Part shown: piece by piece, positions 3,156 through 59,427 of the stretch | Layout: every line of letters begins with the position of its first letter | Numbering within the stretch: position 1 is the first letter of the stretch | Assembly (NCBI GenBank): GCA_949285905.1 | Contig: CASDZV010000041.1 | Span: 62,001 to 126,000, forward strand | Length of the DNA: 64,000 bases | From: an uncultured Spirochaetales bacterium | Lineage (GTDB): Bacteria > Spirochaetota > Spirochaetia > Sphaerochaetales > Sphaerochaetaceae | Direction: 5' to 3' | Made by a program: the position numbers and the translations under genes | Notes under the pieces: model-generated | What the model saw: the letters and a program-made list of their open reading frames with translations, nothing else | The model's database searches: none | What the model was told of the DNA's origin: nothing

Positions 3156-4517
3156 ATGCCAATGGATACCACCGAGAAGCTATTTCTCGGAACGAAGCCA
3201 GGACATCTTTTCTTCAGGGCAGCTATTCCAGGAGCATTGGGAATGCTTGCCTCGTCCCTTTATTATCTTCTGGAAGCTATTCTTGTAGGAAGAGTATTGG
3301 GTGCGGAAGCTTTTGCAAGCATTAATCTTGCAATGCCTTTTGTTATCATTAATTTTGCTGTTTCCGATATGATCGGAGTCGGTTCATCAGTTCCGATTGC
3401 AATCAAGCTCGGTAGAGGTGAGAAAGAAGAGGCAAACAGTATTTTCTCATCAGCCATTGTCATGATAGTCGCGGCAGGTATCCTGACAGGATCACTCCTT
3501 TATATAACGGCACCTTCGCTTTTTGCTCTCATGGGAGCTGATGAGCACCTTATCCCATATGCTGTGGATTATCTGAGGATGTATGCGCGTTTTTCACCTC
3601 TTACAACACTTGTTTTTGCTGTTGATAACTATCTTAGGATCTGCGGTAAGATCAGAGGTTCGCTGATGATGAATATCTTCATGGCTCTTGCAGGTGTGTG
3701 TTTTGAAGTGCTTTTCCTGATCATACTTGATGGGGGAATAGCATCTGCTGCGATGGGTACATGCCTTGGTATGAGCTCTGCTGTTCTTGCAGCTCTCTCA
3801 TTCTTCGTCAGAGGTAAACTCAATCTGAGATTCCGTGTTCCAAAGTTTCATTTATCGCTGATAAAAACGATAGTATCCTGTGGTATGCCGACATTTCTTT
3901 CCAATGTCTCAGGAAGGATTATCTCAATTATTATGAATGTCCTTCTTCTTTCCATGGGAGGAGCAGATGCTGTCAGTGTCTATGGTATCATCATGTCAGC
4001 AGATGGCGTTGTTATGCCACTTTTATATGGGACATGCGATGCATTGCAACCATCGGTCGGTTATAACTGGGGAGCACGGCGTTTTGACAGAGTAGGGGCT
4101 ATAGAGAAGTACTGCTTCGGAACAGGTGCTGTTATTTCGCTTCTTTTTGGTATATTCCTCTTCTTCTTTCCTGATTTCGCTGTAACGCTGTTTATTGAGG
4201 AAGGAAATACGAACATCCATACTCTTGGTATTGCTGCACTGAGGATTTCAGCATTTGCATTTATTATCAGATGGGTAGCTGTATGTACACAAGCATTTAT
4301 GTCAGCTATAGAGAAGCCGCTCTATGCAGCTTCTATCTCTGTCTCTGCTGCGTTCATATTCCCTCTTATCCTGATTGTAGTGTTCAATCCGATAGGGATT
4401 AATGGCATATGGCTGAATCTTCCAGGAACATCTTTGATGACAGCGCTTCTTGCCCTTGTGATACTTTCACGCTATAGGAAAATCGTTAACACAGAAAAGA
4501 ATTGTCAGAACAGCTGA
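3156..4517 (+). CDS. MATE-family multidrug/cation efflux transporter
   Basis: This 453-residue inner-membrane protein has about 12 hydrophobic segments in two homologous halves, as in MATE (NorM/DinF-like) Na+ or H+ antiporters. Family signatures include the N-terminal IPGALGMLASSLYYLLEAILVGR and, in the second half, QPSVGYNWGARRFDR. The substrate is unknown; members export cationic drugs, dyes or metabolites. A GGAGG ribosome site precedes the start by about 6 bases. The 3' end overlaps the converging PfkB gene by 13 bases, so no separate terminator fits between them. Confidence 0.92.
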   Translation: MPMDTTEKLFLGTKPGHLFFRAAIPGALGMLASSLYYLLEAILVGRVLGAEAFASINLAMPFVIINFAVSDMIGVGSSVPIAIKLGRGEKEEANSIFSSAIVMIVAAGILTGSLLYITAPSLFALMGADEHLIPYAVDYLRMYARFSPLTTLVFAVDNYLRICGKIRGSLMMNIFMALAGVCFEVLFLIILDGGIASAAMGTCLGMSSAVLAALSFFVRGKLNLRFRVPKFHLSLIKTIVSCGMPTFLSNVSGRIISIIMNVLLLSMGGADAVSVYGIIMSADGVVMPLLYGTCDALQPSVGYNWGARRFDRVGAIEKYCFGTGAVISLLFGIFLFFFPDFAVTLFIEEGNTNIHTLGIAALRISAFAFIIRWVAVCTQAFMSAIEKPLYAASISVSAAFIFPLILIVVFNPIGINGIWLNLPGTSLMTALLALVILSRYRKIVNTEKNCQNS

Positions 4518-5491
4518 GTTATTTTCATTCTCAGATCTTCTGCCTTTTCCGAAGAGAACTGTGCACCGAGCTGTGAGATAATCTCTCCTGCCAGAAAAGA
4601 GGCTATTTTCCCTGATACTTCAGGGGAATAGCCTTTTTCATAGCCATAAAGGAAGCCTGCTGCATAAGTATCACCTGCACCAGTTGTATCTATAGGTTTT
4701 GTTGTACCATAAAGCGGTATTTCATACATTTTTCCATGATCTGAGATGTATGAACCGTTTTTGCCGTTCTTTACAACAGCAATCTCTGCAAGCTTGCCCA
4801 TGGAACGGCAGCATTCATAAGCATCGTAGTTGTTGAAGAGGAATCGTGCTTCTTCGCTGTTGGCAAATACTATATCTGCAGAATTCTCTACAAGGTCCAG
4901 AAAGTCTGAACGATAACGTCCGACAGCAAACGGGTCAGCAAGATCGAATGCTACCTTCACATTATTCGCTTTGGCAATTGACAGTGCTTTTCTTACTGCT
5001 CTTCTCTGGGAATCTGTATCCCACATATATCCTGTGAAATAGAATATGGAAGCGGAAGCTGCGCTTTTCTCATTTACATTGTTTTCGTCAAACATTCTGT
5101 TTGCGCCAAGAAAAGTATTCATTGTTCTTTCCCTGTCATCAGTCAGCAGAATAATCGATGTACCAGTTGCGGCATTGAAAGTCACTGTCTCATCTGTGAC
5201 TCCGCTTTCTCTGAGTCTCTGGCGATACATCTCTCCATATTCATCATTACCGACACCGCCTGCAAGGGTTGTTTCGATACCGAGCATTCTGAGAGTGACC
5301 ATAGTATTAGGACAGGATCCGCCGCATGAGATAGTCTTCTGTCTGTTTTCCATCTGGCTGAGAATTTCAGAACGCTTGTTCTTGTCAATCAAAAGCATTG
5401 TGCCTTTGTGCAAAGAGAGTAAATCTATATCAGATTCGTCTGCATAGCAGAGAAAATCTATAAGAGGATTGCCTATACCGTATATCGCCAT
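4505..5491 (-). CDS. PfkB-family kinase, adenosine-kinase-like
   Basis: This 328-residue ribokinase-fold sugar/nucleoside kinase has the substrate motif GGSCPNT starting at G57. The ATP/anion-hole motif DTTGAGD lies at 268-274, with D274 the expected catalytic base. The N-terminus (GNPLIDFL) and the spacing resemble the adenosine kinase subgroup, so purine nucleoside salvage is the best guess; another nucleoside or sugar remains possible. There is no ribosome-binding site. A TATACT hexamer ends 6 bases before the ATG, suggesting a leaderless transcript. Upstream lies the DnaA-box cluster. Confidence 0.85.
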   Translation of the reverse strand: MAIYGIGNPLIDFLCYADESDIDLLSLHKGTMLLIDKNKRSEILSQMENRQKTISCGGSCPNTMVTLRMLGIETTLAGGVGNDEYGEMYRQRLRESGVTDETVTFNAATGTSIILLTDDRERTMNTFLGANRMFDENNVNEKSAASASIFYFTGYMWDTDSQRRAVRKALSIAKANNVKVAFDLADPFAVGRYRSDFLDLVENSADIVFANSEEARFLFNNYDAYECCRSMGKLAEIAVVKNGKNGSYISDHGKMYEIPLYGTTKPIDTTGAGDTYAAGFLYGYEKGYSPEVSGKIASFLAGEIISQLGAQFSSEKAEDLRMKITQLF

Positions 5492-5497
5492 ACAAAG

Positions 5498-5503
5498 AGT
5501 ATA
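5498..5503 (-). promoter_or_regulatory. -10 element of the leaderless PfkB transcript
   Basis: On the minus strand TATACT lies exactly 6 bases upstream of the ATG, which places the transcription start at or next to the start codon. The -35 is weak. Confidence 0.5.
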
Positions 5504-5534
5504 GAATCATTTTGGATTAGACGCTATATATGGT

Positions 5535-5805
5535 TTTTCCACAGGTTTTCCACAAGGCAGTGGAATTACTGTGGAAAACGTGGATAACAGAAGAAAAAGC
5601 GAAGAAAACAGACATAATGTATATTAACTCTTTAATAAATTTAATTTCTTTATATATAAGTAAATAACTTTCATACTTAATATGCACTTAACATAGGATT
5701 TATATAATTATGATTCAGATTCAATTGCTGTCATAACATGTGGAATATCGGTTTTTCCCCAGAGTTTTCCACAGGTTTTCCACAGGTAGGGGAAATTTAT
5801 CCACA
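5535..5805. other. Candidate replication origin: DnaA-box cluster with AT-rich core
   Basis: Exact TTTTCCACA nonamers occur on the plus strand at 5535-5543, 5546-5554, 5765-5773 and 5776-5784, and on the minus strand at 5570-5578. A perfect TTATCCACA lies at 5797-5805. One-mismatch boxes occur at 5579-5587 (TTATCCACG, minus) and 5739-5747 (TATTCCACA, minus). The boxes form two arrays flanking a very AT-rich stretch (about 5610-5720), a plausible unwinding element. The boxes match the classical DnaA consensus TTATNCACA or its common TTTTCCACA variant. The region is non-coding and 3.5 kb from yidC-jag, genes that often border oriC. No dnaA gene is present, and the flanking genes are not arranged co-directionally with forks leaving this site, so a DnaA-titrating or DnaA-regulated site is the alternative. 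Confidence 0.7.
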
Positions 5806-5876
5806 TGTGATAAATAACAATGTATTCAGCAATTATTGACTTTGAAATATAAAACCATATCAGGCACCATCTAGCG

Positions 5877-6899
5877 TCAGAACCCTTGCATGTAGAGGTC
5901 TGCCTCTGTGAAAAGCTCTCTGACATTACCAGGGAAGCGGTGCATGAAAAGAGAAAAGTCATTAATTGCTCTCTCCGCATTGATGCTTTTTTTCTGATAA
6001 GCGTCCAGCAGCTCAGGAATATCCTCACTGTGTTCATCAAGGCTTGGCATTCTTATTTCAATTCCTGATATGCGGTAATAGAAATCTTTGCGTATTCTTT
6101 TCTCAGCAAGAAGTGTCGAAAGAGGAATGTTTGATGCTGTGATAAGACGGAAAGATGTCCTTAATATCCTATCCGAACCGAGTTTTCTGTACTCTCCCGT
6201 ATCCAGAACTCTGAGCAGTTTTTTCTGGATTCCTACAGGAAGATCCTGTATTTCATCAAGAAAGAGGGTGGCGCCATCCGCTGCAGATAAAAGCCCCTCT
6301 CTGTTCTCCATTGCACCTGTGAATGATCCTTTATAATGTCCGAAGAGTTCACTGTCTATGATACTTGTTGTAAGGCAGCCGCAGCTTTCGACAATGAATT
6401 TCCCGTTTTTATCGCCTAGCCGGTGAATCAGAGAGGCTGCAAGTGTCTTTCCTGTTCCTGTTTCTCCGATGATATGTACAGGAAGGTCAGAGTGTATGGC
6501 ATGTTTAAGCTGCTCTCTTGTTTTTCTCATGACTTCTGAACTTCCGATAAGTGTCCTCTGCAGAATTGTATCGATGACATCCGTTGTTGAGATATTCTCG
6601 ATTGCATTGAGAATATCCTGGTCTGTGAAATCTTCTGTAAGCAGTTCAGAAGCGCTCCATTGAGGCAGAAGTCTTGCATTTTCAGACAGTATGATGATCG
6701 GTCTTGCCTTGTTGTTTATTATTTCCCAGATGCTTTCTTTTCCCGCTGTTTCAGAATGCATGATGATAATATCATCGGAAGATAACTGAAGCATCTGAAG
6801 CCTCTGCAATGATGTGCAGCTTATAGTCTCCGTATCACTGGCAAGTTTTGAAATTCTCTGTTGAATATCCCTCCCTAATGAGTAATAAATAATTCTCAA
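5877..6899 (-). CDS. Sigma-54 interacting AAA+ activator lacking a DNA-binding domain
   Basis: This protein of about 340 residues carries a sigma-54 activation domain. Walker A (GETGTGKT) lies at 145-152, the sigma-54 contact loop GSFTGA (variant of GAFTGA) at 191-196, Walker B ending in DE near 215-216, and the FPGNVREL motif near the end. The first ~100 residues look like a degenerate receiver-type domain without a clear phospho-acceptor Asp. The protein stops right after the AAA+ core, so the Fis-type helix-turn-helix of normal enhancer-binding proteins is absent. The TTG at 6899 was chosen because GGAGG lies 8 bases before it; a GTG at 6908 has no spacing to that site. It presumably activates sigma-54 promoters without specific DNA binding. 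It sits next to the putative origin. Confidence 0.85.
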   Translation of the reverse strand: MRIIYYSLGRDIQQRISKLASDTETISCTSLQRLQMLQLSSDDIIIMHSETAGKESIWEIINNKARPIIILSENARLLPQWSASELLTEDFTDQDILNAIENISTTDVIDTILQRTLIGSSEVMRKTREQLKHAIHSDLPVHIIGETGTGKTLAASLIHRLGDKNGKFIVESCGCLTTSIIDSELFGHYKGSFTGAMENREGLLSAADGATLFLDEIQDLPVGIQKKLLRVLDTGEYRKLGSDRILRTSFRLITASNIPLSTLLAEKRIRKDFYYRISGIEIRMPSLDEHSEDIPELLDAYQKKSINAERAINDFSLFMHRFPGNVRELFTEADLYMQGF

Positions 6900-6991
6900 A
6901 ATCCCCACCTCCGGGAATTACAATGAATGTAATTGTACAGAAAAGCAAATGTTCTGTGATGAAACAATGGGAAATCGGACAGATAAGGAAA

Positions 6992-57970: not shown

Positions 57971-58004
57971 GATAATCTTAAGATAATTTTATAGAAATTT
58001 ATGA

Positions 58005-58089: not shown

Positions 58090-59427
58090 ATGTACAGACT
58101 AGATGATTTCATGCAGGAAGTTGAGCGCAGGAATCCGGCTGAGCCGGAATTCATTCAGGCAGTCAGGGAAGTGGTGGAATCTGTCATCGATACGGTTAAT
58201 GACAATCCCAGGTACATTCAGAACAGGATTCTTGAGCGTATAACAGAACCTGATCGTGTCATTTCCTTCAAAGTGGAATGGGAGGATGATGACGGTAGCA
58301 TTCACGTAAACAGAGGCTACAGAGTACAGTTCAACAACGCGCTTGGTCCTTATAAAGGCGGACTGCGTTTCCATGCTTCTGTCACAGAGGGCACGATGAA
58401 ATTCCTCGGATTTGAGCAGACATTCAAGAATGCTCTCACGACACTGCCGATGGGTGGCGGAAAGGGAGGCTCTGATTTTTCGCCGAAAGGGCGCTCCGAT
58501 GCGGAAATCCTCCGCTTCTGCCGGTCATTCATGACAGAGCTATATAAATATATAGGACCCGACACAGATGTTCCTGCCGGTGATATTGGCGTTGGTGCAA
58601 GGGAGATCGGATACCTTTACGGGCAGTACAAACGCATCGCGGGTGAGAATACAGGTGTTCTGACAGGCAAGGGCTTTGGATGGGGAGGCTCGCGCATCAG
58701 ACCGGAAGCAACGGGTTTCGGTACGATGTATTTTGCAGAGAATATGCTTCGTGAATGTGGTGAGGATATTGCTGGAAAGCGTATTGCCATCTCAGGTTTT
58801 GGCAACGTTGCATGGGGCGCGGTCATGAAGGCCTCCCAGCTTGGCGCAAAGGTTGTGACGATTTCCGGTCCGGATGGATACATTTATGACGAGAAAGGTA
58901 TCAATACTCCTGAAAAGTGGGCTTATATGCTGCAGCTGAGAGCAAGCAACAATGATGTCGTCAAGCCATATGCTGCCCGGTTCGGAGCAGAGTTCGTTCC
59001 TGGAAAAAAGCCATGGGAAGTACCTTGTGATCTGGCATTCCCTTGTGCAATCCAGAATGAACTTGGTAAAGCTGATGCGGCAGCCCTTGTCAAAAATGGT
59101 GTCAAATATGTTGTCGAGACATCAAATATGGGATGCACGGCAGATGCAATAGCTCTTTTCAGAAACAGCCGTATTCATTTCGCGCCTGGCAAGGCCGCCA
59201 ATGCCGGCGGTGTCGCTGTATCAGGGCTGGAGATGAGCCAGAATGCAATGCATTATTCATGGTCAGCTGAGGAAGTTGATGAGAAACTGAAGGGCATCAT
59301 GAAAGCAATACATGAGGAATGTGTGAGCTGTGGCAGGGAAAGCGACGGATACATCGATTATGTGAAGGGTGCAAATATCGCAGGATTCAGGAAGGTTGCT
59401 GACGCAATGTGCGATCAGGGATACTGA
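58090..59427 (+). CDS. gdhA: Glutamate dehydrogenase, hexameric NADP-type
   Basis: This 445-residue enzyme interconverts glutamate with 2-oxoglutarate and ammonia. GPYKGGLRFHASVTEG, LPMGGGKGGSDFSPKGRSD (catalytic Lys) and DVPAGDIGVGAREIGYL define the substrate domain. FGNVAWGAVMKASQLGAKVV is the dinucleotide loop, and the C-terminal part ends near KVADAM. Length fits the small hexameric class I form. The start at 58090 follows GGAGG at about 5-base spacing; the upstream ATG at 58045 lies in the promoter/terminator region. It links amino-acid fermentation and ammonia assimilation to central carbon. Confidence 0.95.
   Translation: MYRLDDFMQEVERRNPAEPEFIQAVREVVESVIDTVNDNPRYIQNRILERITEPDRVISFKVEWEDDDGSIHVNRGYRVQFNNALGPYKGGLRFHASVTEGTMKFLGFEQTFKNALTTLPMGGGKGGSDFSPKGRSDAEILRFCRSFMTELYKYIGPDTDVPAGDIGVGAREIGYLYGQYKRIAGENTGVLTGKGFGWGGSRIRPEATGFGTMYFAENMLRECGEDIAGKRIAISGFGNVAWGAVMKASQLGAKVVTISGPDGYIYDEKGINTPEKWAYMLQLRASNNDVVKPYAARFGAEFVPGKKPWEVPCDLAFPCAIQNELGKADAAALVKNGVKYVVETSNMGCTADAIALFRNSRIHFAPGKAANAGGVAVSGLEMSQNAMHYSWSAEEVDEKLKGIMKAIHEECVSCGRESDGYIDYVKGANIAGFRKVADAMCDQGY

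Follow-up and report, generated by a model that had tools for sequence, protein, structure and literature searches.

A DnaA-box element of conserved geometry outside the replication origin of Sphaerochaetaceae spirochaetes: a probable control locus

The DnaA-box element and its surroundings

The stretch of DNA analyzed here (64 kb; G000:C41:62001-126000; here, the window) comes from the draft assembly of an uncultured gut Spirochaetales bacterium of the family Sphaerochaetaceae (89 contigs, 2.35 Mb). A non-coding gap of 385 bp (window positions 5492 to 5876), located between a pfkB-type sugar kinase gene and a gene for a sigma-54-activator-like AAA protein, houses all of the DnaA boxes that make up the element described below. 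To the left of the window, the gene order is parA-parB, gyrA-gyrB, dnaA, dnaN, recF, yidC, and jag. The dnaA gene (C41:56714-58060) ends 3.9 kb before the window begins, dnaN starts at C41:58347, and the element occupies C41:67521-67805, at a distance of 9.5 kb from dnaA. The preliminary description of this DNA reported that no dnaA is adjacent, which is explained by the window edge cutting the sequence before dnaA is reached. Two perfect parS-type sites (TGTTTCACGTGAAACA) are present at C41:51058 and 51175, just past parA at a distance of about 7 kb from oriC; a further parS-type copy, with 2 mismatches, exists at C41:57016, within the 5' part of dnaA.

The features of the gap and its two neighbors are as follows (window positions).

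4505-5491, minus strand: pfkB-type sugar kinase gene, left neighbor; some relatives have no pfkB here
5521-5805, plus strand: whole putative DnaA-binding element, a conserved unit in the family-wide alignment A1; matched by model R1 (see below) at G000:C41:67518-67788, E=3.9e-44
5521-5536, plus strand: 16-bp NrdR-box-like motif ACGCTATATATGGTTT, 13/16 to ACACTATATATAGTGT, overlapping the first DnaA box
5535-5554, plus strand: left double DnaA box, TTTTCCACA-GG-TTTTCCACA (exact boxes at 5535-5543 and 5546-5554)
5570-5578, minus strand: inverted exact DnaA box TTTTCCACA, conserved as TGTGGAAA in the alignments
5579-5587, minus strand: inverted degenerate DnaA box TTATCCACG, one mismatch, read from the sequence
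5601-5740, no strand: AT-rich core, 79% A+T (84% over 5620-5720), of fixed length and with most of its sequence drifting
5620-5679, no strand: 60-bp stretch of lowest thermodynamic stability in the 180-kb contig
5643-5669, plus strand: conserved island 1, consensus TTAATTnnTTATAATATAAAnAATTAA, from the alignments; other families show a related sequence
5695-5712, plus strand: conserved island 2, consensus ATTTATATAAnTT, from the alignments
5739-5747, minus strand: inverted degenerate DnaA box TGTGGAATA, one mismatch, from the sequence and alignment A1
5753-5761, plus strand: degenerate DnaA box TTTTCCCCA, 3 bp (GAG) ahead of the right double box
5765-5784, plus strand: right double DnaA box, TTTTCCACA-GG-TTTTCCACA (exact boxes at 5765-5773 and 5776-5784), its start 230 bp from that of the left one
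5797-5805, plus strand: single perfect box TTATCCACA, found in part of the genus
5877-6908, minus strand: sigma-54-activator-like AAA gene, right neighbor; missing from one subclade that retains the element

The preliminary description had recognized arrays of exact DnaA boxes around an AT-rich core in non-coding DNA, at a density above chance, and our analysis agrees: six exact boxes lie within 271 bp, and these account for six of the ten TTWTNCACA matches in the window. The expected number of such matches is 4.67 over all 64 kb, and a Poisson estimate gives about 5e-9 for a cluster of this kind at any place in the window. Chance clustering of the boxes is excluded. In the first array, the two plus-strand boxes and one of the two minus-strand boxes are exact as described, but the other minus-strand box is one mismatch off. 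The second array does contain three plus-strand boxes, the last of which is the perfect TTATCCACA. Two direct boxes 2 bp apart, which define a double DnaA box, occur twice in the element; exact double boxes (TTWTCCACA-NN-TTWTCCACA) are found at only three places in the 2.35-Mb assembly, namely, these two and one in the dnaA-dnaN gap.

There is no IHF consensus in C41:67501-67830, and the element contains no GATC (Dam) sites. Just to the right of it, an imperfect inverted-repeat-like stretch (TAAnT...CAnT...AnTTA; 5808-5840) is partly conserved in the genus alignment. Two other candidates were rejected: a structured RNA, as no Rfam match was obtained over 5300-6100, and a plasmid or mobile element, as no near match was found among plasmid records and conservation is vertical.

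Conservation and distribution among spirochaetes

The spacing between the starts of the two double boxes is 228 to 233 bp in nearly all scored members, other genera included, with weaker calls of 223 bp in G124 and 222 bp in G078. In one subclade (G022/G008/G027/G038), the boxes form a triple whose first box is degenerate; by our reading, counting from this degenerate box gives about 230 bp again. Within the genus, the alignment shows conservation of the double boxes (mean pairwise identity of 0.98 for the left one), the inverted box, and the two AT-rich islands, while other blocks of the core drop to 34 to 37% pairwise identity at constant length. Of about 85,000 genomes scanned, only members of this genus showed the exact double-double geometry. 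With one exception, the records of the same geometry in the public genome collection are labeled “Candidatus Ornithospirochaeta” or uncultured Spirochaetales/Spirochaetaceae. The exception, L046 (CACWNY010000019.1), is a metagenome-assembled genome labeled uncultured Ruminococcus sp. that carries the spirochaete element; this label is probably wrong.

Relatives were searched with a sequence-only model (R1), which was trained on 49 members and is hence partly self-matching on its 136 matches among 139 family genomes (21 of 22 genera; E<1e-6 in 127 genomes). Because R1 also matches oriC beside dnaA in AT-rich genomes, only matches away from dnaA were counted across the class, and oriC matches were set aside (e.g., in G279, G198, G236, G180, G188, G381, G311, G155, G286, G206, and G192). 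In 88 genomes, dnaA and the element exist on one contig; the element is on the dnaN side in all 88 and has the orientation of dnaA in 87. Among these 87 co-oriented genomes, the distance from dnaA ranges from 7.1 to 48 kb, with a median of 10.2 kb. Conservation of both the geometry of the element and its place beside oriC is thus strongly supported by the comparison of genomes. In G016, two strong copies of the element are present (C138:2976-3246 and C142:30676-30945), reflecting either a duplication or a mixed bin.

Outside the family, co-oriented matches 10 to 17 kb downstream of dnaA are seen in G167 (f4), G154 (f17), and G251 and G259 (f26). In six genomes of other families (G184, G222, G291, G374, G346, and G265), the best match and dnaA are separated by 74 kb to about 0.9 Mb, and nearness to oriC is therefore not obligatory. 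Several of these far matches precede an rsmE-S41 gene pair, like the element in the window. Weak scores and synteny together indicate that orthology at the level of the class (Spirochaetia) is likely. The constant side and orientation of the element may derive in part from the conserved synteny of the yidC-jag-...-rsmE-S41 region.

Location of the chromosomal origin

The preliminary description read the element as a candidate chromosomal origin whose AT-rich core serves for unwinding, and it proposed GC skew as one check. However, a canonical oriC is found 9.3 kb away in the dnaA-dnaN gap. This gap, 286 bp in length, contains nine exact DnaA boxes and ends in a box, a short spacer, TTACTATTATTACTA (a DnaA-trio run of 6), and a weak AT-rich stretch. 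A box followed by DnaA-trios and AT-rich DNA constitutes the basal unwinding layout (PMC8287927). The other genera examined show the same layout of the dnaA-dnaN gap, mostly with trio runs of 5 to 7. In the element, trio runs do not exceed 3, a length that shuffled cores also reach. The element thus shares with an origin its cluster of DnaA boxes and an AT-rich, easily unwound stretch, but it lacks the box-then-trios unwinding system and, in six of the seven genomes compared below, is not where the switch of GC skew fits best.

On C41, the raw cumulative skew reaches its minimum at 58,751. A skew model using third codon positions and a gene-strand term places the switch at 58,000 and disfavors the element by 14.4 log units. 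The model was applied to seven genomes, three of which are complete or nearly complete chromosomes from genus g16, probably Sphaerochaeta. The dnaA-dnaN gap fits better in six of them, and the summed misfit is 15.8 log units for the gap versus 70.4 for the element. In the seventh, G008 (60 kb only), the element fits better, with a margin of about 4 log units. Four distant relatives (G374, G346, G232, and G265), whose best matches lie far from dnaA, show no change of skew sign across the match. It is strongly supported by these sequence features that the element is not the chromosomal origin; despite the dense boxes flanking the contig's weakest 60 bp and the fit in G008, we regard an origin at this place as very improbable. 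In some other spirochaete families (G236, G311, G155, G192, G286, and G188), R1 matches DNA directly upstream of dnaA, which suggests that oriC is located there rather than between dnaA and dnaN.

DnaA binding and possible functions

Variation in the boxes points to DnaA as the likely binder. In genus g2 (loci L160 and L168-L171), the oriC boxes read TTTTCAACA, and the DnaA recognition-helix motif is DHST instead of DHTT. The boxes of the element shift likewise, fully in the right pair, although only partly in G058. G004 has shifted in parallel: TTTTTAACA/TTTTTCACA are used at the two places, and the recognition-helix motif is DHTS. Judging from its sequences, genus g2 is a natural case of co-evolution of DnaA boxes and recognition helix. 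In vivo, Escherichia coli DnaA prefers double boxes 2 to 3 bp apart as chromosomal targets (PMC11317965). We consider it strongly supported that the element is bound by DnaA under selection.

DnaA-binding loci outside oriC are known to act by titration (the Bacillus subtilis clusters), by ATP hydrolysis (datA), or by reactivation (DARS), and loci of the titration and datA types work best close to oriC (PMC5010248, PMC4585315, and PMC13220808). In our assessment, it is moderately probable that the element is an origin-proximal, non-oriC DnaA-binding control locus of negative sign, which would probably make it a brake or switch on replication timing. The preliminary description, which offered a DnaA-titration locus as its alternative, came close to this explanation, titration itself being one of two candidate actions. 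DnaA dimers would occupy the two double boxes, an HU/IHF-type nucleoid protein would bend the AT-rich core, and the DnaA complexes, separated by 230 bp or about 22 helical turns, would join in one looped complex; a loop is suggested by two double boxes held at near-fixed spacing around a flexible core. The element would be replicated very soon after oriC fires, and its doubled copies would draw DnaA off the new origins, (i) by plain titration or (ii) by promoted ATP hydrolysis as in datA, so that immediate re-initiation would be suppressed. The looping, the help of an HU-type protein, and the negative sign are steps that we infer. Counting against this explanation are the lack of an IHF-consensus site in the element, a weakness of the core that exceeds the needs of a pure DnaA sink, and the far matches in some other families.

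The weakness of the core leaves room for a reserve unwinding role, in which the element would be a remote auxiliary part of the origin: DnaA bound to it would also melt its core, providing a backup or supplementary place of unwinding, or the element would loop to oriC. Arrays that flank the contig's weakest DNA, and the constant side and orientation relative to dnaA, are consistent with such a role. Yet the element has no trios, dnaA stands between the two parts of known bipartite origins (PMC5295017), which are not 7 to 48 kb off, the distance varies several-fold, and in some other families the match is found at far loci, all of which make an auxiliary origin rather unlikely. A DARS-like site that converts DnaA-ADP to DnaA-ATP would also show a fixed box array outside oriC with conserved spacing. 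The position of the element argues against it: E. coli DARS1 inserted very near oriC raised the origin number, and most selected insertions were far from oriC (PMC5010248), the opposite of what is seen here, and we judge this reading unlikely. About as doubtful as an auxiliary origin part, in our estimation, is a class-wide spirochaete DnaA switch with a mechanism not yet described, in which the double-box loop would melt or strain the core without starting replication, altering the nucleotide state of DnaA or holding a reserve unwinding site, and in which NrdR, and thus the ATP/dATP balance, would possibly act as a gate.

NrdR enters a further explanation, according to which the element is a platform for other factors (NrdR or a nucleoid or segregation protein), with DnaA secondary, linking, for example, dNTP supply to initiation. 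Most members of the genus, as well as G055, G060, G061, and G062 of genus g2, carry the NrdR-box-like motif at position -14, where it overlaps the left box; allowing 1 mismatch, the degenerate motif has only two loci in the whole assembly. In one subclade (L117-L119, L121, L124, L125, and L127), a palindrome of 13 to 15/16 exists past the right array, at about +305 relative to the left pair. The source genome encodes NrdR, as do 57 of 61 sampled family genomes. E. coli NrdR, however, uses paired boxes about 15 bp apart (PMC12176259), and instead of two 16-bp palindromic boxes at a promoter, we found a single imperfect one at -14. Moreover, Sphaerochaeta-like genomes keep the element without the motif, and a platform of this kind is thus quite unlikely. 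The remaining suggestion of the preliminary description, a DnaA-controlled pfkB promoter, is in line with the distance of 44 bp that, in the window, separates the pfkB start codon from the left array. In seven genomes (G014, G019, G007, G010, G026, G023, and G011), pfkB is missing at the element, the left neighbor (rbr or mate) runs toward it, and the right neighbor ends at it. With pfkB absent and its neighbors convergent, the element stands alone and is not a promoter, which excludes this as a general role and leaves the reading scarcely credible.

The control locus that we favor has partial counterparts in other bacteria. E. coli datA (DDAH) is likewise an array of DnaA boxes in non-coding DNA away from oriC, and both its box spacing and its distance from oriC are conserved; it is a paired-box target of DnaA, and its changes fall mostly in spacer DNA (PMC4585315 and PMC11317965). 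The minimal region of datA comprises one IHF site and four boxes (PMC10950094). The element differs in its two direct double boxes 230 bp apart, its AT-rich core, and the lack of an IHF consensus. A spirochaete HU-type protein could act in place of IHF. The B. subtilis DnaA-box clusters, as far as the work of Okumura et al. (2012) is cited in PMC13220808, PMC5295017, and PMC5010248, resemble the element in being close to, yet outside, oriC, and their origin-proximal position matters for function. According to the same accounts, there are six such clusters in B. subtilis, whereas the sole exact double boxes outside oriC here are the two of the element, which also differs in its fixed internal geometry and conserved core islands. 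A Streptomyces DnaA-box cluster near oriC is described as repressing untimely initiation (Smulczyk-Krawczyszyn et al., 2006, as cited in PMC4585315). DARS1 and DARS2 of E. coli are also non-coding DnaA-box loci with conserved spacing, but they are set apart by the description of their box arrangement, by the dependence of DARS2 on Fis/IHF, and by the disturbed function of DARS1 beside oriC. The bipartite oriC of B. subtilis and Helicobacter pylori likewise combines two regions of DnaA boxes near dnaA on a single chromosome; in B. subtilis, the parts flank dnaA, whereas the second region of the spirochaetes lies 7 to 48 kb away and has no trios. The element is best grouped with known DnaA-box control loci by its probable working, but its architecture is its own and probably new.

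How DnaA-box loci away from the origin control initiation has been established for E. coli, B. subtilis, and Streptomyces. In the literature that we searched, an incomplete collection, there is no report of such a control locus in spirochaetes. Our findings also carry a warning, in that origin finding by box density can select a control locus in place of the origin. The existence of culturable Sphaerochaeta relatives makes the question of a control locus testable. The near-fixed geometry in nearly all sampled genomes of the family, together with the diverged copies in other Spirochaetia, would suggest that such control loci are ancient and widespread.
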